From: an uncultured Carboxylicivirga sp.
GTDB taxonomy: Bacteria > Bacteroidota > Bacteroidia > Bacteroidales > Marinilabiliaceae
Reading direction: 5' to 3'
DNA: 64,000 nucleotides
Assembly (NCBI GenBank): GCA_947503525.1
Contig: CANNEA010000006.1
Coordinates: 248,001-312,000 of the forward strand
Shown here: one piece after another, positions 7,938 to 25,248 of the stretch
Layout of the letters: every line of letters starts with the position of its first letter
How positions within the stretch are numbered: position 1 is the stretch's first letter
Translations under genes and position numbers: made by a program
The notes under the pieces: generated by a model
What the model was told of the DNA's origin: nothing
Seen by the model: only the letters and a program-made list of their open reading frames with translations
Databases searched by the model: none

Positions 7938-9110
7938 TCAGGAGAGAGTAGGCAGTTTTTTAAAGTAAATGACCTCTCCTTTGCTTGAGTTATGGGAGTT
8001 GATTACTAAGTATTTATTGTTGTAAGATACAAAAGCGTAGTTGTGTTTACCCAAAAGCTCCATTTGCTGAATAATTGTTTTGGCCTTTATGCTTTTTAAA
8101 TCAAATATGACGAGGCCTGAATCATCTAAACTATTCGATAAATCAGTAATGATCTCAATCTTTGAGTCAGGGAAAATATTTGAAATTTTGGTTTGTAATT
8201 CGATTTTGCGAAAGTTGAGAAGTATCTTATCAACTTTGTAAGCTGTTTGTTTTTTTCGTTTAAACCGAAGTGTAAATACTTTGTACCTATGGATTAATCT
8301 TATACTAACCCATATTAAGAAATTGGTTAAACCAGAGCTTCTGCTTTTAAAGTATTTTTTGTGGAACACCCACATTGCATTATAAAAATAATTATAGATT
8401 TCTGCCTTGTTTGGAGTTGATTGTCCTTTGAAATGAATAATAGGGCAGGAACCAAAGTAATGGTTGCTGCCAAATTTCTTTTTCAATTCGTAGGATAGTT
8501 CGATGTCCTCGCCATACATGAAATAATCCTCATTAAGCAAGGTGAAATCTCCATTCTTATCCCTTTGTTGAACAAGAAATGCACCAGATAGAATATCTAC
8601 TTCTTGCTCACTATCCATGTTAAAATTCCCATGATAATATCTTGCAAATCTACTGGAATTAGGAAAAGCTTTACACAGTCCACTTACCTTATAAAAAGAA
8701 GTTATTGGTGTAGGTAATCCTCGTTTTGATTCTTTTAAAAACTCACCTGATCCATTAATCATTTTAAGACCTAATCCACCAGTGTTCTTATTTTGCGAAT
8801 AAAACTCAATGACCTTTTCGAAGGTGTCTTCTGCAACAATAATATCAGGATTAAGTAGGATTGCCAATTCTCCTTTGGCTTGTTTTAATCCAATATTATT
8901 AGCCTTTGAAAAGCCGAGGTTTTCACTGTTATGAATTGTCGTAATAAAGGGATAGTGTGATTTAGCTTTGGCTGGAATGTCTGTTTTGGAAGCATTGTCA
9001 ACAACTATAACCTCACAATCAATTCCGGAAATGGAACTTTGAACCGAACCTAAGGTTAGGTCCAGAAATTCCCATGCATTATAACTGACTATGATAATTG
9101 ATAATTTCAC
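7938..9110 (-). CDS. Family 2 glycosyltransferase (rhamnosyltransferase-like) with C-terminal extension
   Basis: 390 residues. The GT-A fold opens with LSIIIVSYNAWEFLDLTL, then VIVVDNAS, NLGFSKANNIGLK, LLNPDI (the metal-site DxD variant, near residues 90-95) and LNEDYFMYGEDIELSYEL (near 200-217), the order seen in cytoplasmic-face sugar transferases of surface polysaccharide assembly. Residues about 265-290 include a hydrophobic, basic membrane-associated segment. The last 90 residues (DSKIEIITDL, then GLVIFDLKSIKAKTIIQQM) form an accessory alpha/beta region also met in Bacteroidota GT2 proteins. Acceptor and sugar are unknown. No polysaccharide cluster surrounds it. Confidence 0.85.
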   Translation of the reverse strand: MKLSIIIVSYNAWEFLDLTLGSVQSSISGIDCEVIVVDNASKTDIPAKAKSHYPFITTIHNSENLGFSKANNIGLKQAKGELAILLNPDIIVAEDTFEKVIEFYSQNKNTGGLGLKMINGSGEFLKESKRGLPTPITSFYKVSGLCKAFPNSSRFARYYHGNFNMDSEQEVDILSGAFLVQQRDKNGDFTLLNEDYFMYGEDIELSYELKKKFGSNHYFGSCPIIHFKGQSTPNKAEIYNYFYNAMWVFHKKYFKSRSSGLTNFLIWVSIRLIHRYKVFTLRFKRKKQTAYKVDKILLNFRKIELQTKISNIFPDSKIEIITDLSNSLDDSGLVIFDLKSIKAKTIIQQMELLGKHNYAFVSYNNKYLVINSHNSSKGEVIYFKKLPTLS

Positions 9111-9176
9111 TCTTGCTTCAATCTAATTCCTTCACTGAGCTTGGCTCAACTTATTTCAAATGTCAATCAGCTTGTG

Positions 9177-9617
9177 TTATTGTTCGTCTCGGCAAAACAA
9201 GCGTTGAATAAAACCACAGAAGGTTCTACTCCTGGCTTTATCATATTGATTTCTAAAATTATCCTTCTCGCTTTGAGGAGCATCTTTATTTAGTTGCTGC
9301 CATATTTCGCCCCAACCTAAAAAGCCACCTACATTTCGATCATCAATAAATATGTCGGCATTAACCTTTCGGCTCATGTTTTCATTTATCACTTCTTCCG
9401 GATAAGTTCGGTTGATAGCATAAAATTCAATACCATTACGTCTGCAATAATCAACCGCAGCATCCAGTTCTTTGCCGGATCGGATAGTCCAGAGAACCAA
9501 AAGATGACCTTGCGCTTGTAGTGCTTTAAGTGTTTGAAAAGCAAAGATTTTTTCCTTGCCAATGGCAGGGTATCTGTGCTCAACTATGGTTCCATCAAAA
9601 TCTACTGCTATAAGCAT
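9177..9617 (-). CDS. BT0820-family HAD-type phosphatase
   Basis: 146 residues. The N-terminus has the HAD nucleophile motif VDFDGTIV (Asp6, Asp8), followed by LVLWTIRSG (motif II Thr) and ADIFIDDRNVGGFLGWGEIW (motif IV acidic pair). This length and the NVGG-GWGEIW ending are typical of the small BT0820-type hydrolases of Bacteroidota. It probably removes phosphate from a small metabolite; the substrate is not known. It lies 8 bases downstream of a small membrane-protein gene on the same strand, in the recR transcript direction. Confidence 0.82.
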   Translation of the reverse strand: MLIAVDFDGTIVEHRYPAIGKEKIFAFQTLKALQAQGHLLVLWTIRSGKELDAAVDYCRRNGIEFYAINRTYPEEVINENMSRKVNADIFIDDRNVGGFLGWGEIWQQLNKDAPQSEKDNFRNQYDKARSRTFCGFIQRLFCRDEQ

Positions 9618-9625
9618 ATGAATGT

Positions 9626-10081
9626 TTAATTATCGTTTTTGTCGTTGTTTTCTAATTCTCGCTGAATCGTTGATTGCGATGGGTAATTTAATAGAAGGAA
9701 TAGATAAATTAATCCAAAAATTATTAATTGGTTGATATGTCCGGTGGACAAATAAATTAGAAGACTTATTAGTGATAGGCCTTCCAGAGTAGCTATTTTG
9801 ATAAAATAGGCACTTTTATAATGCATTAGTTTACTTTCAATACTTAGGCTTTGATTGATACGACTCACCTTTCTTTTATGAAACATATAAGAGGCAGGTA
9901 TGCCAATTAAAGCCAGAACAATAGAAAGTGATTTCATATTATTTTCGTTAGCTGTTTCAAAGGTAGAGACTTTACCTATTGTTAGAATATAGTAAAACGA
10001 AAAGGCGGCAAAAATGGCCAGCGTTATGACTATTACAAAATAGATAAGTTTAATTTGCTTATATGTTGAATTCTTTTGCAT
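9626..10081 (-). CDS. Hypothetical four-helix membrane protein
   Basis: About 151 residues from MQKNSTYKQIK (ATG at 10081), which begins one base after the recR stop codon; an upstream Met at 10099 would overlap recR by 17 bases and is less likely. Hydrophobic segments lie near residues 12-34, 45-62, 92-108 and 113-131, separated by a basic loop (HKRKVSRINQ). The C-terminus is polar (ELENNDKNDN). I do not recognise a named family. Tight spacing with recR above and the BT0820 phosphatase below suggests one operon. Confidence 0.65.
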   Translation of the reverse strand: MQKNSTYKQIKLIYFVIVITLAIFAAFSFYYILTIGKVSTFETANENNMKSLSIVLALIGIPASYMFHKRKVSRINQSLSIESKLMHYKSAYFIKIATLEGLSLISLLIYLSTGHINQLIIFGLIYLFLLLNYPSQSTIQRELENNDKNDN

Positions 10082-10082
10082 T

Positions 10083-10703
10083 CTATAAAGTATTTTCAAA
10101 AGGTAAACGATTAACTAATGAACGACCTAAAGTTACCTCATCGGTATATTCCAGTTCATCACCAATAGAAACTCCACGGGCGATAGTGGTCATGTTTATT
10201 TGATGCTTTTCAAATTTCTTAAAAAGGTAGAAATTTGTGGTGTCACCTTCCATGGTTGTGCTTAATGCGAATACCAATTCTTTAACATCCCCATTTTTAA
10301 TTTTTTCTTCCAAAGCCGAAATTGTCAGGTCATCGGGTCCAATGCCATCCATTGGAGAGATTACACCTCCTAAAACGTGATAAATTCCGTCGTATTGTTG
10401 AGTATTTTCAATGGCCATGACATCACGGATGCTTTCCACTACACATATCAATTCATGATTGCGATTATGGTTGGCACAAATATGACAGGTTTCGCTATCA
10501 GAAATATTATGGCAACTTTGACAATACACAATTTCCTCACGCATATGCCTAAGTGAGTCAGAAAATTTAAATACCATTTCCTTTTCTTGCTTAAGTAAAT
10601 GTAATACAAGCCGAAGTGCCGTTTTTTTACCTATGCCCGGTAATTTGGCAAACTCATTTACAGCTGTTTCTAATAATTTAGATGGAAAAGATGCAGAGGT
10701 CAT
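10083..10703 (-). CDS. recR: Recombination mediator protein RecR
   Basis: 206 residues from [10 protein letters not shown] (ATG at 10703), the normal RecR length; the open frame extends 55 codons upstream but that part is unlike RecR. It has the helix-hairpin-helix [20 protein letters not shown] (18-37), a C4 zinc finger CQSCHNI...CHIC (Cys61, 64, 73, 76) and a Toprim domain beginning at ELICVVES (84) with [16 protein letters not shown] (111-126). RecR with RecO loads RecA onto gapped DNA. A promoter-like TACATTTG lies on the minus strand about 32 bases upstream of this start, supporting it. Confidence 0.95.
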
Positions 10704-10869
10704 TTTCAAATGTTGATTATGCTGCAAATGTAATAAAAAGTACTGATGTAAATATGTTTGATATTTGAGCGGATTTATTATAAATGATAAGGTGAGCGGA
10801 TGCGATGATTTAAATCCGTTAATAAGTAATTGCGATATTTCCTGAGTATCGCATCTACAAAACATCACA

Positions 10870-10900
10870 TTGTTTAATTAATTTACAGACAGTATATTTG
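10870..10900 (+). promoter_or_regulatory. Bacteroidota sigma-70-type promoter for the symporter gene
   Basis: TTG at 10870-10872, a 20-base spacer, then TATATTTG at 10893-10900. This fits the phylum's -33/-7 consensus (TTG ... TAnnTTTG). It stands 20 bases before the ATG of the symporter gene, giving a very short leader. Confidence 0.7.
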
Positions 10901-10920
10901 AACATTCAACACAAAAGCAC

Positions 10921-12366
10921 ATGAATCCAATACATATAGCTATTATAATTGCATGTTATTTCGCCTTATTAATTTTGATTTCATTCTTAACTGGAAGAAA
11001 GGCGGATAATGAAACTTTTTTTAGGGGTAACAAGCAATCACCTTGGTATATTGTTTCCATAGGAATGATTGGCGCTTCTCTGTCGGGTGTAACATTTATT
11101 TCGGTGCCTGGTTGGGTAGGCTCAACAGGAATGACATACATGCAAATGGTTATGGGCTATTTTTTAGGCTACCTTGTTATTGCGCATATCCTTTTACCTC
11201 TCTATTATCGATTAAATCTGACATCCATATATAGCTATCTGGACGAGCGATTTGGCTTTTGGTCATACAAATCCGGATCTGTTTTATTTTTATTGTCGCG
11301 TACGGTTGGAGCATCAGCACGCTTATATTTGATGGCTAATGTATTGCAGATAGCTGTCTTTGATGCCTTTAATATTCCGTTTGAAGTCACGGTGGTGTTA
11401 ACTATATTTCTGATTTGGCTTTACACGTTTCGGGGTGGTATTAAAACCATTATATGGACAGATACCTTGCAAACGCTGTTTATGTTGACCTCTGTTGGGA
11501 TTGCGGTCGTTCTTATTTCAAAAAGCATGGACCTTTCTTTTACTGGAGTGATTAGTACCATTTCAGAGAGTGAATATTCAAAGCTATTTGTGTTCGACGA
11601 TTGGGGATCAAAACAACATTTTGTTAAGCAATTTCTAAGTGGGGCATTTATTACCATTGTAATGACCGGGTTGGATCAGGATATGATGCAAAAAAATCTC
11701 ACATGTAGAAATCTGAAGGATGCGCAAAAGAATATGTACTGGTATGGTTTTGCATTTATGCCTGTCAATCTATTGTTTTTAGGACTAGGAGTTTTATTAT
11801 TTGTTTTTGCCAATAGTCAGGGCATTGCTATCCCCGAAAGAGCAGATGATTTGTTTCCCATAATTGCCACAGGTGGTTATCTTCCTCCAATTGTTGGGGT
11901 GTTTTTTATTTTGGGATTGGTTGCTGCGGCATACTCAAGTGCAGATTCTGCCTTAACATCTTTAACTACTTCTTTTTCTGTCGACATTCTGGGCGTTAAG
12001 GGGCAGGTTGAGAGTAAAGCAAGACGTAATCGCATCCTAGTACATATCGGATTTAGCTTTCTCCTGGCCGTTGTTATTTTGTTGTTTAAAGCCTACAACG
12101 CAGGTAGCGTGATTAGTACTATCTTTAATCTGGCTGGTTACACCTACGGGCCTTTATTGGGTTTATACGCCTTTGGCCTGTTTACCAAGTTTAAGCTTAA
12201 AGACAAATGGGTGCCTTTGGTTGCAATAATTGCCCCTATAATAACCGGGATAATTGATTACAATGCCGAATCCTGGTTTGGTGCCGCTATGGGTTTTGAA
12301 AAACTAATTTTAAATGGGGCAATTACCTTTGTAGGTTTATTGGCCATAATGAAGCGTAATCGTTAA
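10921..12366 (+). CDS. Sodium:solute symporter (SSS family)
   Basis: 481 residues with about 13 hydrophobic segments, the usual build of SSS (SLC5-like) transporters. Family traits are visible: FRGNKQSPWYIVSIGMIGASLSG near residues 32-55 (first LeuT-type helix with the GASLSG break), YSYLDERFG near 100-110, and the Na2-site-like AAAYSSADSALTSLTTSFS near 338-356. It couples sodium entry to uptake of a sugar, organic acid or related solute; the substrate cannot be read from sequence. It is monocistronic, facing the convergent acyl-CoA ligase gene, and divergent from recR. Confidence 0.88.
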   Translation: MNPIHIAIIIACYFALLILISFLTGRKADNETFFRGNKQSPWYIVSIGMIGASLSGVTFISVPGWVGSTGMTYMQMVMGYFLGYLVIAHILLPLYYRLNLTSIYSYLDERFGFWSYKSGSVLFLLSRTVGASARLYLMANVLQIAVFDAFNIPFEVTVVLTIFLIWLYTFRGGIKTIIWTDTLQTLFMLTSVGIAVVLISKSMDLSFTGVISTISESEYSKLFVFDDWGSKQHFVKQFLSGAFITIVMTGLDQDMMQKNLTCRNLKDAQKNMYWYGFAFMPVNLLFLGLGVLLFVFANSQGIAIPERADDLFPIIATGGYLPPIVGVFFILGLVAAAYSSADSALTSLTTSFSVDILGVKGQVESKARRNRILVHIGFSFLLAVVILLFKAYNAGSVISTIFNLAGYTYGPLLGLYAFGLFTKFKLKDKWVPLVAIIAPIITGIIDYNAESWFGAAMGFEKLILNGAITFVGLLAIMKRNR

Positions 12367-12463
12367 AAATAGTTGGAGCTGGCTCTAGCAATCAGTTAAT
12401 GCTTAGTGTAAATACGCAAAAGCCATCTCCCAAGTTCAAACAAAAAAAACTAATCATTAGACC

Positions 12464-14281
12464 CTATCCACCAAACTTAATGGAACCACGATTTTCTTCA
12501 CCATTTTCATAAGCATACATCTCACGCAATATGTCGGCATACTTTTTATAGATGATTCGTCGACGTAATTTTAGAGTAGGAGATAGTTCGCCGGTTGCCG
12601 AAGTCCAGTTTTCGCAAACGAGTTTAAAACGCTTGATTTGCTCATGCGCACCCAACTGTTTATTATACTTCAATACTTCCTGGCGATAAACAGACATCAC
12701 CTTATCATCTTTAATCAATTCCTTGTTGTCACGGAAATGAACTTTTTGTTGATGAGCCCATCCATGAAGAAATTCGAAGTTCGGGGCCAATAAAGCACCA
12801 GCAAACTTTTCGCTTTCGCCAACAATTATAGCTTGTTCGATAAAGTCGGATTCTTTAAGAAGGTTTTCAATGGATTGTGGGGCTATGTATTTACCGCTAG
12901 AAAGCTTAAACATCTCTTTCTTACGGTCGGTAATTTTAAGAAACTTATTATTGATAAGTTTGCCGATATCTCCTGTGTGAAACCAACCATCACTATCAAT
13001 AACTTCTCTGGTGGTTTTCTCATCTTTATAATAACCCATCATAATGTTGGGTCCTTTGGCTAATATCTCACCATCATCATCAATATTGACTTCAACACTA
13101 TTGAAAACAGGCCCTACTGTGCCAATCATTAGGTTGCCAGGCTGAGCGATATAATTAGCTGCAATTACAGGTGCTGTTTCCGTCAGGCCGTAACCTTCCA
13201 TCAAAGGAATTCCGGCAGCAAAAAACAATCGACTTAAGCGAGGTTGAAGAGCGGCTCCTCCACTTACTACAAATCGCAAATGCCCACCAAAAGCCTTTTG
13301 CCACTTTGAAAAAATCAGTTGACGAGCTATCTTCAGTTTAAGTCCGTACAAAGGATAATTCTTTCCGTTGGTTCGATAACGTTCACCTAACTTCATCGCC
13401 CAGAAGAAGAGGCTCTTTTTGATGCCTGATAAATCATTGCCTTTAGATACCAGTTTATCGTAAATACGTTCTATAACTCTTGGTACTGTAACAAAAGCCG
13501 AGGCCTTTATCTCAACAAGGTTTTGGGCAATGGTTCCCAGATTTTCAGCATAATAGATGCTACATCCATTGGCCTGGAACAAATAATTAATCATTCGCTC
13601 ATACACATGGCAAAGTGGCAAGAAGCTCAGAATATTATCTTTTGGTCCCAAAGGATACAAAGGCAAGGCATCCTTCATATTGCTGATGAAATTTTTGTGG
13701 CTAAGCATAACACCCTTTGGGTTGCCAGTCGTTCCTGAGGTGTATATTATGGATACCAACTCATCTTCACTTATGTTGTTTCTGATCTCTTTGAATTTAT
13801 CTTTCCAAATAATCCGTTCCTGCTCACCAAGATCTGTGATTTCGCTCCAGTTATTTGCTTCGGCAATGTCGTTGAAAGTATAAATTTCCTTAATGGAATC
13901 AATTTCTGCCGCAACTAGTTTTAGCCGCTTATATAAGGTGATGTCCGAAATTATCAGCATGCGGGCATCACTATGTTCTAAAATAAATTTGTATTCTTCA
14001 TCTGAAATAGTCGGATAGATGGGTACATGAACTACACCAATCATCGACATGCCCATATCCACAAAGTTCCATTCCGGACGATTGTTTGATACGGTGGCTA
14101 TCTTATCCCCTTTCTGAAAGCCTTTTGCTAATAATCCATAACTGAATAAACGGGCCTGTTCGCTATATTCCTTAACACTAAACTTAACCCATTCTTTGTT
14201 GCGCTTGGCGCATAAAATGTCTTCCTTATCGAGGTTGTGCTTGAGGTTAGCAAGCAAATCGAAGGTCCTTGTGATTTCCAT
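12464..14281 (-). CDS. Long-chain acyl-CoA synthetase (AMP-forming)
   Basis: 605 residues from MEITRTFDLL (ATG at 14281). The adenylate-forming motifs are in order: ATP-binding IIYTSGTTGNPKGVMLSHKN, MEGYGLTETAPVIA, GWFHTGDIG and ITDRKKEMFKLSSGKYIAP. This length and the C-terminal GELSPTLKLRRRIIYKKYAD block are typical of FadD15/ACSL-like ligases that activate long-chain fatty acids for lipid synthesis or breakdown. The reading frame stays open for 98 codons upstream to 14575, but a TATCTTTG element at 14312-14319 (minus strand) sits just before 14281 and family alignment begins there, so the shorter start is chosen. Confidence 0.9.
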   Translation of the reverse strand: MEITRTFDLLANLKHNLDKEDILCAKRNKEWVKFSVKEYSEQARLFSYGLLAKGFQKGDKIATVSNNRPEWNFVDMGMSMIGVVHVPIYPTISDEEYKFILEHSDARMLIISDITLYKRLKLVAAEIDSIKEIYTFNDIAEANNWSEITDLGEQERIIWKDKFKEIRNNISEDELVSIIYTSGTTGNPKGVMLSHKNFISNMKDALPLYPLGPKDNILSFLPLCHVYERMINYLFQANGCSIYYAENLGTIAQNLVEIKASAFVTVPRVIERIYDKLVSKGNDLSGIKKSLFFWAMKLGERYRTNGKNYPLYGLKLKIARQLIFSKWQKAFGGHLRFVVSGGAALQPRLSRLFFAAGIPLMEGYGLTETAPVIAANYIAQPGNLMIGTVGPVFNSVEVNIDDDGEILAKGPNIMMGYYKDEKTTREVIDSDGWFHTGDIGKLINNKFLKITDRKKEMFKLSSGKYIAPQSIENLLKESDFIEQAIIVGESEKFAGALLAPNFEFLHGWAHQQKVHFRDNKELIKDDKVMSVYRQEVLKYNKQLGAHEQIKRFKLVCENWTSATGELSPTLKLRRRIIYKKYADILREMYAYENGEENRGSIKFGG

Positions 14282-14311
14282 ATAACTCTTATCTATTCTA
14301 GCTGATGAGAT

Positions 14312-14319
14312 CAAAGATA
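14312..14319 (-). promoter_or_regulatory. Probable -7 element for the acyl-CoA ligase gene
   Basis: CAAAGATA on the plus strand reads TATCTTTG on the minus strand, a match to TAnnTTTG, 30 bases before the chosen ATG. No clear TTG stands 19-20 bases further upstream, so the match is partial. Confidence 0.45.
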
Positions 14320-14585
14320 ATGATTTTTGTTTTCCGAAGTAAAGGTCTGTGAGGAAAGTATAGGGCGTATTTAGGAATGCAGATAGTAAACGCATTTTTA
14401 TGTTGACTAATTTCTGATGCATTAAGACCACATCAGAAATATGCACGTGCACAGGGATGTATGATAGATGGAAATAAAATAAGTAGTGAGTTTTGATTCT
14501 GAAGGAATAAGGAATTATTTGAATAAGTAGAATATTATCCATCAATTGTGCATTATTTACTATTTTTTTGCTCACGCAAGCAATC

Positions 14586-14593
14586 TATTTTTG
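14586..14593 (+). promoter_or_regulatory. Probable -7 element for the UroD-family gene
   Basis: TATTTTTG matches TAnnTTTG and lies 43 bases before the ATG at 14637. The nearest upstream TTG (14568-14570) leaves only 15 bases of spacer, shorter than usual, so this is tentative. Confidence 0.4.
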
Positions 14594-14636
14594 TAGTACT
14601 TATCAGGTATCTTTCTACCCAAATAAATCAATAATA

Positions 14637-15896
14637 ATGAATTCAAGAGAAAGAGTAATTGCTTCCATTGAGCACAAATCAATTGATAAAGTCCCGTTTG
14701 ATATAGGTAGTAATCCCAGTTCTGGCATATCGGCCATTGCCTATTCGAAACTGTTAAAACATTTGGGTAAGGATAATTTACCGGTTAAAATATTTGATGT
14801 AGTTCAGCAATTGGCCCATCCAGATATGGAAATAGTGGATGCCTTGGGTATAGATGTGATTGATATCGGAGTGATGTATAATACCCATACTAATGATTGG
14901 TGCGAAACTAAGCTAAGTAATGGCGATGCGGCTTTATACCCCAATTGGTTTAGGCCTGAAAAAGATAATAATGGCGATTATTTAGCTAAAAATAAAACAG
15001 GAGAAGTCATCGCCAGAATGCCTGCCGGATCAAGTTTCTTTGATCAAACCATTTTTCCTTGGTTGGATAGTTTTCCACCGGAGATGTCGGGCTTAAAGGA
15101 AGCAATGGATAAAGTATTGTGGAGTGCTTTTGCGCATAGTCCATGGGATCATGCCAATAAACCGGAATTTTGGAGTGATTTGCGAAAGAAGGCTTTGCAG
15201 CTTCGTAATAAATCGGACAAGGCCATTATGATTACAGTAGGTTGTAATTTGTTTGAATGGGGAACTTTTTTACGAAGAATGGATAATTTCCTTATGGATC
15301 CTTATATGTATCCGGATGAAGTGAATACTTTTCTAGATGCTTTGTTGAAGATTCATTTAAATACCTTGGAAAAGGTGGTTGAATCAGTTGGAGAGGTTGT
15401 GGATATTATTCGCTTTGGTGATGATTTGGGAATGACCAGTGGTCCATTGGTGCCACCCGATCTTTACAAAGAATTTTATAAGCCGCGCCATGCAATGCTT
15501 AATGACTATGTACATCAACATTGTAAGATGAAGACATTTTTGCATTCTTGTGGGTCTATCGATCAATTGATTCCTGATCTTATAGAGGCTGGATTTGACA
15601 TCTTAAATCCGGTACAAACAAATTGTGCGGGGATGGAGCCGGAGCGCTTAAAAAATGAGTTTGGGAAGAATATTACTTTTTGGGGCGGAGGTGCTGATAC
15701 CACCACGGTATTGAATAGAGCAAGCACCGAAGAGGTGCGAAAGCATTGCTTAAATCGTCTTGAGATATTTTCGAAAGATGGTGGTTTTGTTTTTAATCCG
15801 GTACATAATATCATTCCTGATGTTCCGCCTGAAAATATTATCGCCATGGTTAATGCCGTTAAAGAGTTTAATGGTGAAGAGTTAATAAAGTTTTAG
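14637..15896 (+). CDS. Uroporphyrinogen decarboxylase superfamily protein (methyltransferase-like)
   Basis: 419 residues from MNSRERVIASIEHK (ATG at 14637); the frame is open a further 23 codons upstream but the family starts here. It has the UroD-superfamily barrel with RERVIASIEHKSIDKVPFDIG at the start, FGDDLGMTSGPLVPPDLYKEF, and the HSCGSIDQLIPDLIEAGFD / NPVQTNCAG / FWGGGADT series. These traits mark the MtaA/MtbA-like and orphan branch rather than HemE: the protein is longer and lacks the N-terminal HemE arginine-rich signature. Members move methyl groups to corrinoid or coenzyme M, or act in unknown steps of catabolism. Only 16 bases separate it from the mutarotase-like lipoprotein gene, so the two likely share a message. 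Confidence 0.78.
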   Translation: MNSRERVIASIEHKSIDKVPFDIGSNPSSGISAIAYSKLLKHLGKDNLPVKIFDVVQQLAHPDMEIVDALGIDVIDIGVMYNTHTNDWCETKLSNGDAALYPNWFRPEKDNNGDYLAKNKTGEVIARMPAGSSFFDQTIFPWLDSFPPEMSGLKEAMDKVLWSAFAHSPWDHANKPEFWSDLRKKALQLRNKSDKAIMITVGCNLFEWGTFLRRMDNFLMDPYMYPDEVNTFLDALLKIHLNTLEKVVESVGEVVDIIRFGDDLGMTSGPLVPPDLYKEFYKPRHAMLNDYVHQHCKMKTFLHSCGSIDQLIPDLIEAGFDILNPVQTNCAGMEPERLKNEFGKNITFWGGGADTTTVLNRASTEEVRKHCLNRLEIFSKDGGFVFNPVHNIIPDVPPENIIAMVNAVKEFNGEELIKF

Positions 15897-15912
15897 ATTC
15901 AACAGATTTATT

Positions 15913-16674
15913 ATGAAATATATAAAATATCTCGTTTTTGTAATTTCACTTCTTATAATTTTGCCGAGTTGTCAACAAGAAAAAAAAATGCGCCGTTTTA
16001 CTTTTGCAACCTATAATTCTTTGAGTGATTCTATTGCTTTTCAAAATCTAAAGTCTGATAAAGTTGTATTGGATGAATTGGCCAAGTCAGGGGTAGTTAA
16101 TTTTAACTATTGCTCGATGGATTCCATTTCATACCTGGTATTAGATATGGAAGAAGATTTCAATCTCGATCGAAGTATAAAAGTATTTAATGACTTGGCG
16201 TTGAAATATTCACAGTTAGGTTTCTTTACTGAAATCCTTAATGGCAATTATCAGCTTCTGGATAGGATTTATAAAATGGAACAAACAATAGAATATGCAG
16301 CCAGCAGTGGTCAGTTGATTCCTTATCAAAAGGCTGACTATGGTCGTTTTATACTAACCCTTGAAATTATAAATGATCCAGTTTTAGCCGAAGAATATAT
16401 TAAAGTACATGGCATAGGTATGGCCTGGCCTCAGATTACAGAGAATATGAAAAGTGTAGGCATTCATGAAATGGAATTATATTTGATGGGCTATCGTGCT
16501 TTTTTAATAATGGATACAAAACCGGATTTTGATTGGGATATTGATGGAAAGGTTTGGGGCGACCTGCCAAAGGAAAAAGATTGGCAAGCTTATGTGGCTA
16601 AGTTTCAAAAAACAAATCCTGAAAGTAAAGCCGCAGAGAAGTGGAAAACAATGAAGCTTATCTCAATGCACTGA
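15913..16674 (+). CDS. Lipoprotein with two L-rhamnose-mutarotase-like domains
   Basis: 253 residues. A lipoprotein signal ends in LPSC with Cys20. Residues 144-253 match the L-rhamnose mutarotase (RhaM, DUF718) pattern: GRFILTLEIINDP, EEYIKVHGIGMAWPQI (His166, Trp172-Pro173), IHEMELYLMGYRAFLIMDT and the closing AEKWKTMKLI. Residues 26-105 (RRFTFATYNSL, LDELAKSGVVNFNYC, SYLVLDMEEDF) look like a second, degenerate copy lacking the His and Trp-Pro. Known RhaM enzymes are about 105-residue cytoplasmic proteins that interconvert anomers of rhamnose. An exported, membrane-anchored double copy is unusual, so activity is uncertain. It probably forms an operon with the preceding UroD-family gene. The assignment is by motif reading only. 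Confidence 0.7.
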   Translation: MKYIKYLVFVISLLIILPSCQQEKKMRRFTFATYNSLSDSIAFQNLKSDKVVLDELAKSGVVNFNYCSMDSISYLVLDMEEDFNLDRSIKVFNDLALKYSQLGFFTEILNGNYQLLDRIYKMEQTIEYAASSGQLIPYQKADYGRFILTLEIINDPVLAEEYIKVHGIGMAWPQITENMKSVGIHEMELYLMGYRAFLIMDTKPDFDWDIDGKVWGDLPKEKDWQAYVAKFQKTNPESKAAEKWKTMKLISMH

Positions 16675-16774
16675 TTTAATAGAAGCTATCTAGAATTATA
16701 TACCTTGGCCTCTTAATGATGATTTCATTATCGAAATGGTATGAATTCATATTTATCCTTAGCTCGGATATAAA

Positions 16775-16957
16775 TCACTCAATTCTGAGCAGATGGATTT
16801 GATCCGTTTGTTGAGTACCCCAAAGCAATGCCAGTTTAACCCGATCAGACATTGGAGTTGAACCTGGCTGATTAACCCAGACGAAATTAGATTCATCCAC
16901 ATTAATAGGTCTTTCAACACTATCAAATTCTTCATCTTGCCGTAATATTATGAACAT
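16775..16957 (-). CDS. Possible small hypothetical protein
   Basis: A 60-codon frame with ATG at 16957, preceded by GGAG five bases upstream, and ending in TGA at 16775. The codons look like those of neighbouring genes and the product (MFIILRQDEEFDSVERP... ending IHLLRIE) is of mixed, non-repetitive composition with two Trp residues, unlike a chance frame. I recognise no domain. It lies in an otherwise empty 325-base gap between the mutarotase-like lipoprotein and the flavin reductase, on the opposite strand to both. It could be a genuine small gene or the 3' remnant of a larger one. Confidence 0.4.
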   Translation of the reverse strand: MFIILRQDEEFDSVERPINVDESNFVWVNQPGSTPMSDRVKLALLWGTQQTDQIHLLRIE

Positions 16958-16999
16958 TATAGCTCCATTTCATGTCTATACAAATAAAAAGATTTACGA

Positions 17000-17536
17000 A
17001 TGAAGAGAATAATTGCATTTGGAGCAAGTAGCAGTAAACAATCGATAAATAAAACATTCGCACAATTTGCGGCTGACAAACTGGAAGTAGAATATGAACT
17101 TCTTGATTTAAACGATTATGAAATGCCTATTTTCAGTGTTGACAGAGAGCAAGAATTAGGCATTCCTGAATTAGCCCTTAAGTTTAAAGAGCAGATAAAA
17201 TCAGCTGATGGAATTATTATCTCTTTTGCTGAGCACAATGGAGCTTATAGTGCAGCCTATAAGAATATCTCAGATTGGGTTTCGCGAATCGAAAAAAATA
17301 TGTGGAACGATAAACCAATGTTATTAATGGCTACTTCGCCGGGAGCAAGGGGAGGTGCATCGGTTCTTGAAATGGCAATTAATCGTTATAAATTTGGAAA
17401 TAGCAATACAATTGCCAGCTTCTCTTTGCCCTCTTTTAATGAGAATTTTTCTTTGGATACGGGTATTAAGGATCAAGGCTTGAATGACCAATTTACGGCA
17501 CAGTTGAAAATTTTCAAATCAGCATTGCAGCGATGA
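17000..17536 (+). CDS. NADPH-dependent FMN reductase / NAD(P)H oxidoreductase
   Basis: 178 residues of the flavodoxin-like NADPH-dependent FMN reductase family. The flavin phosphate loop GASSSKQSINKTFAQF (8-23) is at the N-terminus, ADGIIISFAEHNGAYSAAYKNISDW (near 73-97) supplies the isoalloxazine-contacting loop, and MATSPGARGGASVLE (near 113-127) follows. Such enzymes reduce FMN, quinones or azo compounds with NAD(P)H in the cytoplasm. It stands alone, with no partner gene. Confidence 0.85.
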   Translation: MKRIIAFGASSSKQSINKTFAQFAADKLEVEYELLDLNDYEMPIFSVDREQELGIPELALKFKEQIKSADGIIISFAEHNGAYSAAYKNISDWVSRIEKNMWNDKPMLLMATSPGARGGASVLEMAINRYKFGNSNTIASFSLPSFNENFSLDTGIKDQGLNDQFTAQLKIFKSALQR

Positions 17537-17894
17537 TTAGCATTCATAAGATGTAAGATCAAAAACAATTACTCAGGAGCTTGTAGCTGGGTAATCAGGT
17601 ATTGTGTTTTGGAGTGTTTATGGAATGTATTTTTTGAATAAATAAAGGCAGCAGTTGCTCTACAACAATTTAAGAAAGGAAGTAATAAGCATTGACAAAC
17701 GGAAGCTTTTTCTTATTTGAAATTTCTTTTTTAAAAAGTAAAGCAATAGTAGAATTGGCCCAAAAGAATAATTTGGCAGTTATACCCTATCAATTCAATG
17801 CTAAGTTTATATGGTGAAAGCATATCCCTGCTGTTAAATGCAAAAGACAATATTATATCAGAAACACCAATTGACTTAAGAAAAATTCGAATTA
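17537..17894. other. Gene-poor gap with possible gene remnants
   Basis: 358 bases without a convincing gene. A coding-like stretch without an ATG runs from about 17690 to 17816 (ending in AQKNNLAVIPYQF-NAKFIW), and a shifted frame continues it to 17914. This arrangement would fit a frameshifted remnant, but the area is AT-rich and chance is not excluded. No hairpin terminator is obvious after the reductase gene. Confidence 0.3.
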
Positions 17895-17914
17895 TTACTC
17901 TTGACCTATTTTAG
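17798..17914 (+). pseudogene. Possible frameshifted remnant or 38-codon ORF
   Basis: ATG at 17798 to TAG at 17912-17914 encodes MLSLYGESISLLLNAKDN and a tail ending in RKIRIITLDLF. The same frame is open back to about 17750 and the neighbouring frame is open immediately before, as if one gene had suffered a one-base shift. It overlaps the convergent membrane-protein gene by 20 bases. No family is recognised, and it may be chance. Confidence 0.2.
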
Positions 17915-18218
17915 AACTTCCATTCTTATAAAGGAAGGAAATGGAAAAAATAAACAGACAAGCTATAAATTCATAATAGAAAAGAAAATGTCCTTTAAAG
18001 TTGGCCATTAGATTAACTGAACTGATGGTAATTAAGAACATACCAACCATTAAAATAACCCAATGAAGGTTTTTAAAATCTTCATTCATCAACAACAATA
18101 TAAAAGGGAAAGCGATGGATGCAGCGGTTATATAACCATAACTGCTTGTGAATATTGAAATTAATGCTAAGATTACAGTAATTGATAGAAGGCTTATAAT
18201 TGTTACTTTTCTTTCCAT
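17895..18218 (-). CDS. Small hypothetical membrane protein
   Basis: 107 residues from MERKVTIISLL (ATG at 18218); a Met seven codons earlier (18239) is the alternative. Four hydrophobic segments are visible near residues 4-22, 25-40, 49-66 and 74-96, with few charged residues between, and a polar end (YKNGSSKIGQE). No family is recognised. It is a single-gene unit between the flavin reductase and the divergent capA-like gene. Confidence 0.6.
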   Translation of the reverse strand: MERKVTIISLLSITVILALISIFTSSYGYITAASIAFPFILLLMNEDFKNLHWVILMVGMFLITISSVNLMANFKGHFLFYYEFIACLFIFSISFLYKNGSSKIGQE

Positions 18219-18412
18219 AATGTTGTTTTTTGTCTGCAAGACTAATAATCCATGTGTAATTACAATTTACTAAGCAAAGAGTTTAAATTTAAGTCACTTT
18301 TTTTAATTTATTCTTAATAGCTAAAGTGTCGTCTCATTAAATAATAGATAACTCTAAGTTACCAATTCTAAATCTTCTTCTCCATTTTTGTATTTTTACG
18401 AAAAATGGTTGT

Positions 18413-19555
18413 ATGCGTTATCTTCTTTTATTTTTACTATTTGTTTCATTGAATCTTTCTGCCCAGGAAAAACTTCAAATTCTTTTTCTGGGAGATGTTA
18501 TGGGGCACGATACTCAAATTAACTCGGCCCGTATTGATTCAACAGGAGAGTTTGACTACCACAGTTGCTTTCGTTACATTAAAGATGATATGAAATCGGC
18601 TGATTTGGTCATTGCTAATCTGGAAGTTACTTTGGCCGGACCGCCTCATAAAGGATATCCACAATTTTCTTCACCTGATACTTTAGCCGATGCCTTAAAG
18701 GATGCGGGTGTTGATGCACTGGTAATGGCCAATAATCATTGTGTTGATCGAAGACAAAAAGGATTGGAGCGAACATTAAAAATATTGGATGAGAAAGGAA
18801 TTCCCCGAACTGGTGTGTTTAAAGATAGTTTGGATAGAGTTAAGCATAACCCATTAATTATTGAGAAGAAAGGATTTCGTTTGGCCTTGCTTAATTATAC
18901 CTATGGGACTAATGGGATTAGGGTGAGTGCTCCAAATATTGTGAATCAAATTGACACAGCCGTAATGGCAAATGATATCCTCATAGCTAAAGCAAAAAAT
19001 GTGGATGATATTATTGTTTGTATGCACTGGGGCTGGGAGTATCAAACCAAACCTAATCCCGAACAAAAACGTTTAACTCAGTTTTTATGGAGTAAGGGTG
19101 TTAAAGTGGTGATTGGTTCTCATCCTCATGTGGTTCAACCTATGCACTGGGAAAAGGATGGGCATCAGGATAATATTGTGGTTTATAGTTTAGGAAATTT
19201 CATCTCCAATCAACGCAAGGCACCTTGTGATGGTGGCGTTATGGCGATGGTAGAATTAACAAAAGCAAAAGACTCTACTTATATATCCGATGCGAATTAT
19301 CAGCTAACCTGGGTACATACGCCAATTGAAAATGGGAAAAAGCGATTTTATGTGCTGCCGGCGAAACGTTTTTCAGATGCGGCTTATTGGCCGGATTCAG
19401 TCGCCAAAAAGCGTTTGAACGAATATATTGCTGAAGCCAGTGCTGTTTTTAAGAATAATTCTAATGTTAGCGAGAAGAGTTTCTCCATTCTTCTTAATTA
19501 CCTCGAAAGTAAAGGTGTAATTAAATCCAAGATTGAAGTTGTGTCACAATTGTAA
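18413..19555 (+). CDS. CapA-family protein (calcineurin-like phosphoesterase fold)
   Basis: 380 residues with a signal peptide (MRYLLLFLLFVSLNLSAQ). CapA/PGA_cap landmarks are in order: LFLGDVMGHD (metal-binding Asp), VIANLEVTLAG, LVMANNHCVDR (Asn-His), IVCMHWGWEYQTKP, VVIGSHPHVVQP and VYSLGNFISNQ. The founding member takes part in poly-gamma-glutamate capsule synthesis in Bacillus, but most homologues, including those of Bacteroidota without capBC, have unproven roles, probably as exported metallophosphoesterases. No capB or capC lies nearby. It converges on alaS with a shared hairpin terminator. A second CapA homologue lies at 23514-24719. Confidence 0.85.
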   Translation: MRYLLLFLLFVSLNLSAQEKLQILFLGDVMGHDTQINSARIDSTGEFDYHSCFRYIKDDMKSADLVIANLEVTLAGPPHKGYPQFSSPDTLADALKDAGVDALVMANNHCVDRRQKGLERTLKILDEKGIPRTGVFKDSLDRVKHNPLIIEKKGFRLALLNYTYGTNGIRVSAPNIVNQIDTAVMANDILIAKAKNVDDIIVCMHWGWEYQTKPNPEQKRLTQFLWSKGVKVVIGSHPHVVQPMHWEKDGHQDNIVVYSLGNFISNQRKAPCDGGVMAMVELTKAKDSTYISDANYQLTWVHTPIENGKKRFYVLPAKRFSDAAYWPDSVAKKRLNEYIAEASAVFKNNSNVSEKSFSILLNYLESKGVIKSKIEVVSQL

Positions 19556-19581
19556 GATCAGGTATAAATTATAATATAGAA

Positions 19582-19611
19582 AAGCCCGATTTGCAACTGC
19601 AAATCGGGCTT
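19582..19611. terminator. Bidirectional hairpin terminator between capA-like gene and alaS
   Basis: A perfect 13-base stem (AAGCCCGATTTGC with its complement) around a four-base loop AACT, placed between convergent genes, so it probably serves both. The T-run on the plus side is short (CTTCTT). Confidence 0.8.
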
Positions 19612-19633
19612 CTTACTGTATGGCCAGAGTATT

Positions 19634-22270
19634 TTATGCTTCTAATTTATTTTTGATAATAGCACTAGCTTCTTCTATGGCAGCATCAAGACCTGCAAGA
19701 TTTTTACCTCCCGCTGTCGCAAAAAATGGTTGGCCACCGCCACCACCTTGCATCTTTTTAGCAGCTTCGCGAACAATAGCTCCTGCATTCAAGTCATATT
19801 CTTTAATAAGCTTGTCTGAGATAAGTATAGCCAATTGTGGTTTACCTTTTAATTCGCTACCTAAAATAGCCACACAATCCTCTAATTCAGTTTTAATTTG
19901 GAAAGCCAAATCCTTCATCTCATCTGCCAGTATTGGTTTAACCTGACTTGAAATAACTTTGATTCCATTGATATCAAAAGCACTGTCAATGAGATTTCGC
20001 TTTTCAATAGTCATGGCACCTTTTTTCATGTTCTGAACCTGACTACTCATGTTGGAATTCTCATCCATCAGGTTCTCGATGTTTTTCTTAAGGTTAGCAG
20101 GATTCTTGAACATGTTCTGCAATTCCTTTATTATGCCAAACTGTACATTAATAAACTCTTCAGATTTTGAGCCACTAACCGCTTCAATTCGACGAATGCC
20201 TGCAGCGATTGATGACTCACTTATGATTTTGAAATAACCGATCTCTCCGGTTGCATTCACATGAGTTCCTCCGCATAACTCGACTGAATCATCAAATTTA
20301 ATTGCCCGAACCAAATCGCCGTATTTCTCTCCAAATAGCGCCATTGCGCCCATTTTTAATGCTTTAGGATAAGGGATTTCTCGCATTTCTTCCAAAGCAA
20401 GGTTCTGACGTATTTTCCGATTGACTTTTCCTTCTACAATCTTAATTTCCTCTTCGGTCATTTTTTGGAAATGTGCAAAATCAAATCGTAAATAATCAGG
20501 ATGCACCAATGAACCTTTTTGCTCTACATGCTCTCCAAGAATCTCTCTTAAGGCCTGATGAAGCAAGTGAGTTGCTGTGTGATTATTAGCTGTATTCTGT
20601 CTATATTCAGCATTAACAACAGCCTTAAAAGTTCCATTTAAGTTACTTGGTAGTTTCTTAGCCAAATGAACAATCAAGTTGTTCTCTTTTTTGGTGTCGA
20701 TAATCGAAACTTTCTCATCGCCTTGTTCAATATATCCAGTATCCCCTACCTGACCGCCACTCTCGGCATAAAATGGAGTGATGTTAAATACCAGCTGATA
20801 GAGTTCTTTATTTTTAGCCTTAATCTTACGATAACGAGTTATAAATACTTCTGATTCGATATAGTCGTAGCCAATAAATTCTTCACGATCATCCTGTTGA
20901 AGAACTTCCCAGTCATCCGTTTCGATGGCAGTAGCATTACGTGCACGTTGCTTCTGTTTTTCCATCTCTTCCTCAAACTCTTTTCGGTTAACCACTAATT
21001 GGTTTTCCTTAAGAATTAATTCTGTTAGATCTAAGGGAAATCCAAAGGTATCGTATAACTCAAAAGCAACAGCTCCACTTACAACGTTGTATTTATTTGC
21101 TTTTGTATCAGCTATTATTTTATCCAACATGTTGATGCCGGTCGCCAAAGTGCGAAGAAATGACTCTTCTTCTTCTTTTATTACCTTTTCAATCAAAGTC
21201 TTTTGTGCGCTTAACTCAGGATAGGCATCTCCCATTGTTAGAATAAGAGTATCCAACAACTTATAAATAAATGCTTCTTTACTATTTAAAAAGGTATAGC
21301 TATATCGTATGGCACGACGTAAAATACGACGTATAACATAGCCGGCCTTGTTATTTGAAGGTAATTGCCCATCAGTGATCGAGAAGGCAATAGTTCTAAC
21401 ATGGTCAGAGATAACACGCATTGCAATGTCAACTTCCTCGTTTTTGCCATATTTAAAACCGGTTAATTCAGATATTTTATCCAAAAAAGGTTGAAATACA
21501 TCAGTATCGTAATTGGATGATTTCTTTTGAATGACACGGCACAAACGCTCAAATCCCATTCCGGTATCCACATGCTTGTTAGGCAGAGGAACTAAATCGC
21601 CATTGGATTTGCGGTTAAACTGAATGAAAACCAGATTCCAAATTTCAATTACCTGAGGATGATCCTCATTAACTAATTTTTTACCATCCAGTTTTTCTCG
21701 CTCGTCGTTTGGACGCATGTCAATATGGATTTCAGAACAAGGACCACAAGGTCCTGTCTCACCCATCTCCCAGAAGTTATCTTTTTTATTACCATTGATG
21801 ATTCTACTTTCATCAATCCATTCTTTCCAATTATCAGCAGCTTCGTTATCACGCTCCACGTTATCGTCTTTGCTTCCTTCGTAAACAGTCACAAACAAAC
21901 GATCTTTATCTATTTTTAGAACCTCAGTCAGGTATTCCCAAGCCCAGGCAATTGCTTCCTTTTTAAAGTAATCGCCAAACGACCAGTTGCCCAACATTTC
22001 AAACATGGTATGATGATAGGTATCATGACCTACTTCTTCCAAATCGTTGTGCTTACCTGAAACGCGTAAGCATTTTTGTGAATTAGCCACTCTCGGACTT
22101 CCTGCAGGATTATTTCCTAAAAAGATATCTTTAAACTGATTCATCCCTGCATTAGTAAACATTAGGGTTGGATCATTTTTCACCACCATAGGTGATGATG
22201 GTTCAATTTTGTGCTGTTTCGATCTGAAAAACTCCCAAAAACTTTTTCTAATTTCTGACGCAGTCATCAT
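19634..22270 (-). CDS. alaS: Alanine-tRNA ligase
   Basis: 878 residues, full length. The class II catalytic core begins with [20 protein letters not shown] and [14 protein letters not shown]; the editing domain has the zinc-binding NHTATHLLH motif and the matching [13 protein letters not shown]; the C-terminal DHHA1 domain ends with [18 protein letters not shown]. It charges tRNA-Ala and removes mischarged Ser or Gly. The gene is divergent from the M23 peptidase gene, a neighbourhood I recall as common in Bacteroidota. Confidence 0.98.
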
Positions 22271-22409
22271 ATGTTGCTTATTTTTAATTTACTCTTCTAT
22301 ATTGTTAACTCTTTAAAAGCAAAAGACTATACAAAAGCCTTCTCGCTAATTTTTCCATCAGATTCTCACAAGTTATCTGTGCAGGTCCTGTTCTCTGTAT
22401 GGAAAACTC

Positions 22410-22439
22410 TTGCAAAGTTAGATTATTTACCTAATTTTG
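22410..22439 (+). promoter_or_regulatory. Bacteroidota-type promoter for the M23 peptidase gene
   Basis: TTG at 22410-22412, a 19-base spacer, then TAATTTTG at 22432-22439, matching both consensus boxes and their spacing. The gene's ATG is 49 bases downstream. Confidence 0.7.
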
Positions 22440-22487
22440 GGCGATACATGGTTAATTTTTCATTTTTTAAAATAAAACCGAATAAGC

Positions 22488-23462
22488 ATGTCAAAGGTTA
22501 AGTATCGTTATAATCCTGAAACGCTTAGCTATGATAGAATTCAGAAAGGATTTCAATATTATCTTTTCCGCGTTTCCATATACCTAACTACCATATTGTT
22601 ATTGGGCTTAGTGCTGTACTTTATCTACCCTTACGTCTTTGAAAGTCCAAAGGAAAAACGTCAGACCAGAGAGATTCAGCAGTTATTGGCTCAATTTGAT
22701 ATCATGAACAAAAAATTAGACCAGGTTGAATTGGTACTGGATGATATTGAATTGAGAGATGAAAATATTTACCGTTCCATTTTTCAGGCGGATAGTATAC
22801 CTCAAAGTATTCGACGTGCAGGATTCGGAGGTGTTAACAGATACCAGCATTTAGAGGATATGAATAATTCCGAATTGGTGCTTAACACAGCTCGTCGCCT
22901 GGATGTGGTGATGAAACAACTTTATGTACAGTCGACTTCATTTGATGAGGTTATTGATTTGGCAAAGCGTAAAGATGAAATGTTAAGATCAGTTCCTGCT
23001 ATCATGCCAATATCAAACAGCGATTTACGCAGGACAGCTTCCGGTTGGGGGTATCGTATTCATCCAATTCACAAGATTCGAAAGTTTCATTATGGAATGG
23101 ATTTTACCGCACCTAAAGGAACCGAGATTTATTCTACCGGAGATGGTGTTGTTTCTAAAATCACCAATGAAGTAAGGGGTTACGGTAAGCGAATTGAAGT
23201 AGATCATGGTTTTGGCTACAAAACATTATATGCTCATCTAAGTGAATTTAATGTAAAACGCGGTCAAAAGGTGAAGCGTGGTGAGGTTATCGGTTATGTT
23301 GGTAACACCGGAACAAGTACTGCTGCCCATTTGCATTACGAAGTTATTGAAAAAGGACATAAAGTTAATCCTCAACACTATTACTTTAAGGAAGATTTTA
23401 CTGCTGAACAATATGATCGAATGATTCAGATTTCATCTAATTCAAATCAAACCTTCGACTAG
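22488..23462 (+). CDS. M23 family peptidoglycan endopeptidase, membrane-anchored
   Basis: 324 residues. An N-terminal membrane anchor (LTTILLLGLVLYFIYPYVF, about 33-51) is followed by a coiled-coil-like stretch (about 55-165) and a LytM/M23 domain (about 180-310). Zinc ligands are visible in KFHYGMDFTAPKG (His-x3-Asp) and AAHLHYEV (His-x-His), with TLYAHLSEF between. Such enzymes cut peptide cross-links of peptidoglycan or, when degenerate, regulate amidases; here the ligands are intact. It is divergent from alaS and ends in a hairpin terminator. Confidence 0.9.
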   Translation: MSKVKYRYNPETLSYDRIQKGFQYYLFRVSIYLTTILLLGLVLYFIYPYVFESPKEKRQTREIQQLLAQFDIMNKKLDQVELVLDDIELRDENIYRSIFQADSIPQSIRRAGFGGVNRYQHLEDMNNSELVLNTARRLDVVMKQLYVQSTSFDEVIDLAKRKDEMLRSVPAIMPISNSDLRRTASGWGYRIHPIHKIRKFHYGMDFTAPKGTEIYSTGDGVVSKITNEVRGYGKRIEVDHGFGYKTLYAHLSEFNVKRGQKVKRGEVIGYVGNTGTSTAAHLHYEVIEKGHKVNPQHYYFKEDFTAEQYDRMIQISSNSNQTFD

Positions 23463-23490
23463 GTTAAAATTATACGAGATATAAATATGA

Positions 23491-23516
23491 AAGCTACTCA
23501 TTGAGTAGCTTTTTTA
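23491..23516 (+). terminator. Hairpin terminator after the M23 peptidase gene
   Basis: An 8-base stem AGCTACTC/GAGTAGCT with a three-base loop, followed by TTTTTT. The convergent CapA-homologue gene ends within the T-run. Confidence 0.8.
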
Positions 23517-24719: not shown

Positions 24720-24903
24720 GCCTGATTTTTTTCAAAGATAGTTAATTAGTCCTTCAGTCGATTTGCAATTTGCTCAATTAAACAATGGTTCTTTATTGGT
24801 CTTACACTTTCCAGCTGCATATTGCGTACTATAGACAATTCTCTATTTTGGCTTTTATGCAAATTACCGTTATTATTGTATATCGTTCAATAAATACTTT
24901 AAG

Positions 24904-25242
24904 ATGCCTTATAAAGAACAAAAGGTAGAAAAATTGTTTTATTCCATAGGTGAAGTAGCGGACCTGTTTCAGGTAAATACTTCATTAATTCGTTTCTGGG
25001 AGAAAGAGTTTGATATCATTAAGCCTCAAAAAAACAAAAAAGGCAATCGCCTGTTTACTCCAAAAGACCTTGAAAACTTTCATTTGATTTTTCATTTAGT
25101 GAAAGAAAAAGGAATGACTTTAAAGGGAGCACAGAAGAAGCTTAAGGAAAATCATGATGATACTATTAATAATTTTGAAGTAGTATCTAAACTTAAAGAA
25201 ATTCGTGAGCTTCTGGTAGATGTTCGCGACAACATTGATTAA
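24904..25242 (+). CDS. MerR family transcriptional regulator (short form)
   Basis: 112 residues: a winged-helix MerR DNA-binding domain (YSIGEVADLFQVNTSLIRFWEKEF, residues 13-36, then NRLFTPKDLENFHLIFHLV) plus a short helical tail with no effector domain. It opens a tight operon with the Nif3-like (6-base gap) and zinc-ribbon genes. No metal or drug gene is nearby, so the ligand is unknown; the same small MerR accompanies these genes in other Bacteroidota as I recall. Confidence 0.85.
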   Translation: MPYKEQKVEKLFYSIGEVADLFQVNTSLIRFWEKEFDIIKPQKNKKGNRLFTPKDLENFHLIFHLVKEKGMTLKGAQKKLKENHDDTINNFEVVSKLKEIRELLVDVRDNID

Positions 25243-25248
25243 TAATTC

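Follow-up and report, generated by a model that had tools for sequence, protein, structure and literature searches.

The window, the whole 64,000-nucleotide stretch from an uncultured Carboxylicivirga sp. that was analysed here, contains a gene for a 253-residue protein in which a lipoprotein-type leader precedes two domains of the L-rhamnose mutarotase (RhaM) type, one apparently degenerate and one intact (Table 1). A gene of the URO-D/MtaA family lies upstream on the same strand and ends 16 nt before it, and the two genes are probably co-transcribed. The leader is hydrophobic and is followed by Cys20 in the context LPSC-Q, with an unusual Pro in the lipobox. Such a leader suggests that the protein is exported and lipid-anchored, in line with the Cys anchor that an earlier note had read from the sequence. 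Megablast found no match to positions 12400-20000 among plasmid sequences.

Table 1. Features of the lipoprotein gene and its upstream neighbour (positions in the window).
Feature	Position	Strand	Evidence
URO-D/MtaA-family gene	14640..15896	+	PF01208, E 1e-23
Lipoprotein CDS, degenerate plus intact RhaM domain, 253 aa	15913..16674	+	open frame started by ATG at 15913; stop codon ends at 16674
Leader and lipobox, Cys20 the putative lipidation site	15913..15972	+	sequence, judged by eye
N-domain, probable degenerate RhaM copy (residues 25-121)	15985..16275	+	profile-profile match and shuffles; ferredoxin-like model
Linker (residues 122-143), like the C-tail of some single-domain RhaMs	16276..16341	+	ungapped scores, shuffles
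C-domain, canonical RhaM (residues 144-253)	16342..16671	+	PF05336, E 2.3e-16; model against 1x8d and 7byu
Conserved active-site block, Tyr162, His166, Trp172-Pro173	16396..16431	+	aligned with the E. coli RhaM chain

Known RhaM enzymes are single domains of about 105 residues that form cytoplasmic homodimers. In the window protein, Pfam sees a single RhaM domain, PF05336 at residues 147-248, whose score of 60.3 bits exceeds the cut-off of 23.4 (E 2.3e-16), and an NCBIfam scan of the whole protein gave no match. All the landmarks that had been named for residues 144-253 are found there (His166, Trp172-Pro173, EMELYLMGYRAFLIMD and EKWKTMK), so that the assignment of this half to RhaM is confirmed in motifs and Pfam score and, as described below, in predicted fold. 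Tyr162, His166 and Trp172-Pro173 align with Tyr18, His22 and Trp26-Pro27 of the E. coli RhaM chain, positions that we take to be the catalytic residues of the domain. Across the alignment Tyr162, His166 and Trp172 are invariant in 33 of 33 rows and Pro173 nearly so. The MERIYKL ending that is canonical in relatives is missing from the C-domain.

The N-terminal half is not recognised by Pfam, and its sequence contains neither Tyr-x3-His nor Trp-Pro, as the claimed loss of the His and Trp-Pro implied. Profiles were needed to compare the two halves, because BLASTP between them gave just a 24-residue match (E 6e-5). Against a custom RhaM profile the N-half scores 10.6 bits, a value reached by none of 1000 residue shuffles; for its orthologues at loci L049, L050 and L071 the corresponding counts are 0, 0 and 4 of 1000. 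A profile of the N-domain built from the four orthologues matches a profile of 50 motif-selected single-domain RhaMs, not all of them independent, with an hhalign score of 45.0 and a probability of 93.8% over 77 columns in register, and none of 200 column shuffles scored as high (maximum 26.0). The match extends to the RhaM-typical ending LLDRIYKME. The last part of the N-domain, together with the linker, matches C-terminal tails of at least 27 residues that are carried by 5 of 43 single-domain RhaMs; in each of the four orthologues, none of 1000 shuffles equalled the ungapped scores against these five tails. Given this resemblance in sequence, the linker is probably an old RhaM tail. The profile-profile match with its controls, the linker similarity and the predicted structure together support the reading of the N-half as a duplicated, degenerate RhaM copy. 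The duplication proposed by the earlier note is thus upheld, with the second copy extended from residues 26-105 to residues 25-121 on the basis of the model.

Structure prediction gives both domains a similar fold. AlphaFold2 was run on 33 sequences to give five models, of which the best full-protein model has a pLDDT of 91.2 and a pTM of 0.84 (72.0-89.5 pLDDT for the other four), and both halves are predicted as ferredoxin-like folds with the order beta-alpha-alpha-beta-beta-alpha-alpha-beta. In VIA-align the C-domain model superposes on 1x8d with Z 9.5 (1.8 A, 101 residues), on 7byu with Z 9.5 (1.9 A, 99 residues), on 2qlw with Z 8.9 and on 6hhn with Z 8.8. A phmmer search of PDB sequences reached 1x8d at only E 0.53; its best row, a deformylase at E 0.28, was taken as chance. 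When the N-domain was predicted alone from four sequences, with other RhaM rows left out, it gave the same fold (pLDDT 82.1, pTM 0.72), and thus no different N-terminal fold was seen. This model compares with RhaM chains at Z 6.0-6.3, with a best row of 7.8, and Foldseek returned no match to it at E <=0.001. Many dimeric alpha/beta-barrel proteins tie at this level, so that the link of the N-domain to RhaM rests on sequence and not on fold. Residues 24-253 as a whole align with the fused two-domain barrels 9lmn (Z 12.3, 3.4 A, 189 residues) and 9ltx (Z 12.0, 4.0 A, 185 residues), which supports a predicted packing of the halves as in fused two-domain alpha/beta-barrel proteins. This likeness to 9lmn, 9ltx, 3f44 and 3mcs concerns the packing of two ferredoxin-like domains; these proteins are described as polyketide or monooxygenase-type and have 4-11% identity to the window protein. 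Two functional options had been offered, a pseudo-dimer with one active site and a periplasmic sugar-binding protein. The former is better supported than pure sugar binding, because the C-domain keeps the active-site residues and shares 76-77% identity with its counterparts in the three orthologues, compared with 29-54% in the N-domain.

The same layout, a lipoprotein-type leader before the two domains, was found in three other genomes. The orthologues are 63% (L049, Labilibacter marinus, G034), 56% (L050, a Draconibacterium metagenome-assembled genome) and 52% (L071, G817) identical to the window protein. Full-length matches were seen in 3 of the 71 genomes searched within the family and in 2 of the 393 searched within the order, the window genome being counted in both; a pattern-limited scan of an 84,980-genome collection found them at 2 loci. 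Searching 395 genomes of the class with the N-half profile recovered the window genome; eight other genomes gave nine weak hits between them (E 0.001-0.007), which were put down to chance. An N-terminal match in G011, itself weak (E 7e-4), was not reproduced by a later profile and was dropped. The window genome also carries, on contig C1 (L058:5363-5720), a further but decayed copy of this gene, one matched stretch of which contains eight stops. The remnant sits between an AraC regulator gene and a sodium/solute symporter gene, near alpha-L-fucosidase and sulfatase genes, and the AraC protein beside it is 79% identical to that of L050.

Exported-looking RhaMs are also found outside this group of orthologues. 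PF05336 is present in 72 of 395 genomes of the phylum. In a second family, three proteins (L051, L052 and L053) consist of a leader, of the lipoprotein type in L053, followed by a degenerate half and a RhaM C-domain with the Tyr-His-WP set. These three share 48-51% identity over about 180-205 residues with the C-terminal part of a large protein at L138:336-2840 (G1111), which together with L151-L163 makes up 14 large proteins ending in a two-domain module with RhaM; at least 14 PF05336 places, in 14 of the 395 phylum genomes, lie in frames of 833-872 aa. The L138 protein aligns nearly end to end with the other 13 at 51.6-85.6% identity (L163 is cut at its start), and a family scan of this one of the 14 found a leader, GH141_M, a beta-helix and a C-terminal RhaM. 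GH141 is named among the fucosidase families acting on L-fucose in an excerpt of a 2025 article (PMC12282258). The N-half of the second family is tentatively RhaM-like in sequence: its hhalign score against RhaM is 20.1 at a probability of 4.9%, with none of 200 shuffles as high and the best at 19.0, and residue shuffles equalled the score in 24 of 1000 cases for L053 and 297 of 1000 for L051. None of the other profile comparisons (A-BC, A-BN, BN-BC, BC-BN) was distinct from its shuffles, the BN-BC control including one outlier shuffle at 133.75. Further exported-looking two-domain forms occur at L055 and L059. Single-domain RhaMs with a lipoprotein-type leader, judged by eye, are encoded at L098:12224-12640, L132 and L136, and RhaM export may therefore extend beyond the two-domain form. 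At L054:4225-4962 (G041) the order appears by eye to be reversed, with a RhaM followed by a degenerate-looking second copy; this protein is probably cytoplasmic, and its gene adjoins an MFS transporter gene.

Genome context points to the sugar on which the window protein may act. At L050 and L079 the lipoprotein gene is part of, or adjoins, what is probably an oxidative L-fucose operon, with genes for an enolase-family dehydratase, a Zn-dehydrogenase, an SDR, an L-fuconolactonase-like amidohydrolase and an aldo-keto reductase. It is mainly the lactonase that supports assigning this operon to L-fucose; it is the sole gene with a fucose family model, which it matches below the cut-off (NF052480, E 1e-88, 297.6 bits against 400). 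The dehydratase has L-talarate/galactarate dehydratase as its best NCBIfam model, also below cut-off. A profile of a RhaM type that we call KRYC gives the C-domain of the window protein 112.7 bits, and the orthologue C-domains score far higher with this profile than with the classical one. Loci were split by a motif rule into 39 of the KRYC type and 21 classical ones, with six duplicate or double-domain loci excluded and the loci numbered 3-48 that the rule missed left out, and their flanks of about 1.5 kb were searched by tblastn. Relatives of the L-fuconolactonase occur at 17 of the 39 KRYC-type loci and none of the 21 classical loci, those of the Zn-dehydrogenase at 10 and none, and those of the L050 aldo-keto reductase at 4 and none. 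Relatives of FucP, searched with an MFS query that exceeds the cut-off of TIGR00885 (fucP), occur at 19 KRYC-type loci (one of them the query's own) against 4 classical ones. The SDR is found at 2 loci of each type, and no relative of the dehydratase was found in these flanks in either group. At 11 of the 39 KRYC-type loci the short flanks hold no gene of the fucose set.

In the window genome, the same five genes of the probable L-fucose operon are found on contig C3, apart from the lipoprotein gene, and no RhaM gene lies within the 19 kb read around them; fucose-pathway genes were not seen beside the lipoprotein gene among the listed window ORFs or at L049. This genome also encodes a classical RhaM and a FucU/RbsD homologue that exceeds its cut-off, so the lipoprotein is not its sole candidate deoxysugar mutarotase. 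On genome context, the substrate is likely a 6-deoxyhexose, probably L-fucose, and L-fucose-mutarotase-like is a better label for the family than the earlier L-rhamnose-mutarotase-like.

We judge with moderate confidence that the protein is probably a mutarotase that acts on a 6-deoxyhexose, L-fucose being the likeliest, after export and lipid anchoring, and that it has a single active site in the C-domain, with the N-domain as pseudo-subunit. From the observed sequence family, duplication, predicted fold and gene context we infer export, catalysis, substrate and an extracytoplasmic benefit, in the following way. The lipoprotein would be anchored, probably in the outer membrane, facing the periplasm. 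Its RhaM domain would be the sole active site and would accelerate the exchange of the free sugar between its alpha and beta anomers, while the worn-out N-domain would replace the second subunit of the usual homodimer and complete the fold within one chain. The sugar that exported fucosidases release would be brought to anomeric equilibrium before uptake, which could keep an anomer-selective transporter or a C1-oxidising L-fucose dehydrogenase supplied with its preferred form.

The upstream URO-D/MtaA partner is not accounted for by mutarotation. Matches above 500 bits to this gene occur in 7 of the 71 family genomes (G000, G034, G023, G810, G811, G004 and G009). A RhaM gene adjoins it in G000, G034, G004 and G009, and in G023 a single-domain RhaM lipoprotein is encoded 2.8 kb away, so that five of the seven have the pair adjacent or within 3 kb; the adjoining gene encodes the two-domain lipoprotein at L049 and a single-domain RhaM at L082 and L083. 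A family scan of the G004 operon adds a corrinoid protein, a second methyltransferase of the MtaA/CmuA family and a CobW-like GTPase, and this operon also has genes for a RhaT-like transporter and a methionine-synthase-activation-like protein. For G009, tblastn found the corrinoid protein, the second methyltransferase and RhaT, and the remaining G004-type genes were seen by eye. Counterparts of the corrinoid protein and the second methyltransferase are also present on contig C1 of the window genome, with a corrinoid activase-like protein. Gene sets that combine a corrinoid protein, URO-D/MtaA-family methyltransferases, a CobW-like GTPase and a methionine-synthase-activation-like protein span L083:4857-12327, L082:3322-9791 and, in the window genome, L097:4945-10269, the first two including a RhaT-like transporter and RhaM. 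These sets suggest a candidate O-demethylation system for a deoxysugar, of which we recognised no description in the openly licensed literature among the matches listed. At L101 (G1035), in a genome from outside the family, a classical RhaM gene lies beside that of a 56% relative of the window URO-D protein.

The window protein could accordingly be a mutarotase whose deoxysugar is O-methylated or modified in some other way, with the URO-D/MtaA protein as the substrate-specific methyltransferase of corrinoid-dependent O-demethylation and the lipoprotein handling the same sugar outside the cytoplasm. The recurrent proximity of URO-D and RhaM genes, L101 included, and the corrinoid genes of G004, G009 and contig C1 speak for this reading, which we nevertheless consider unlikely: at L050 and L079 the lipoprotein gene has no URO-D gene next to it, no corrinoid gene was seen by eye among the ORFs listed for positions 8000-26000 of the window, and the URO-D genes of G810 and G811 have no RhaM in the 9.4 and 18 kb fetched. 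Somewhat more doubtful is an exported binding or sensing protein, in which the RhaM pair would present periplasmic deoxysugar to a transporter or regulator without catalysis. The lipid-anchor leader and the motif-less N-domain would suit such a role, as would the related AraC genes that stand divergent in L049 and L050 and beside the remnant in L058. However, it is the domain with the Tyr/His/Trp-Pro set that is best conserved, and AraC proteins are cytoplasmic and would not meet a periplasmic partner. That the leader stays unprocessed and the protein cytoplasmic like other RhaMs is improbable, since the imperfect LPSC lipobox is outweighed by a hydrophobic, Cys-ending leader (by eye) in all four orthologues, kept at a leader identity of only 15-37%, and by the lipoprotein-type leaders seen by eye on L053, L098, L132 and L136.

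An anchored deoxysugar mutarotase with one active site, the reading that we prefer, can be set against known systems. The C-domain agrees with RhaM/RhaU (PF05336; 1x8d, 2qlw, 6hhn) in family, fold and Tyr/His/Trp-Pro positions, whereas the whole protein differs in its 253-residue length, Cys leader, degenerate second domain and context pointing to L-fucose. As two related domains replace the usual layout of one domain of about 105 residues, we assign the C-domain to RhaM and treat the whole protein as a variant. FucM of Acidovorax avenae (7byu) resembles the C-domain in fold and the L050 and L079 loci in pathway context, but its solved chain has one domain of 108 residues, and it is not known to carry a lipid anchor. 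FucM of the non-phosphorylating pathway is a known L-fucose mutarotase, according to an excerpt of PMC11199699. Among the matches listed from the openly licensed literature, we recognised no description of an exported RhaM, of the live-plus-dead layout or of a related pair fused to a GH141-type hydrolase.

RhaM-family mutarotases are usually taken as cytoplasmic helpers of sugar catabolism. More broadly, and only tentatively, we propose that anomerisation in Bacteroidota may have moved outside the cytoplasm, probably more than once, by means of single-chain RhaM pseudo-dimers, either as lipoproteins beside L-fucose oxidation genes or as modules that are free or fused to the C-terminus of secreted GH141-type hydrolases, and that it would then be coupled to deoxysugar release and uptake. 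In Marinilabiliaceae the same step might also serve corrinoid-dependent demethylation of O-methyl-deoxysugars through URO-D/MtaA. The related pair fused to a GH141-type hydrolase hints at the role of such exported mutarotases. If the exported live-plus-dead form is real, it would be a clear example of a homodimer that became a single-chain pseudo-heterodimer, its single-domain relatives still extant. Some Bacteroidota would then equilibrate anomers outside the cytoplasm, which would make the anomer preference of deoxysugar transporters a testable question.
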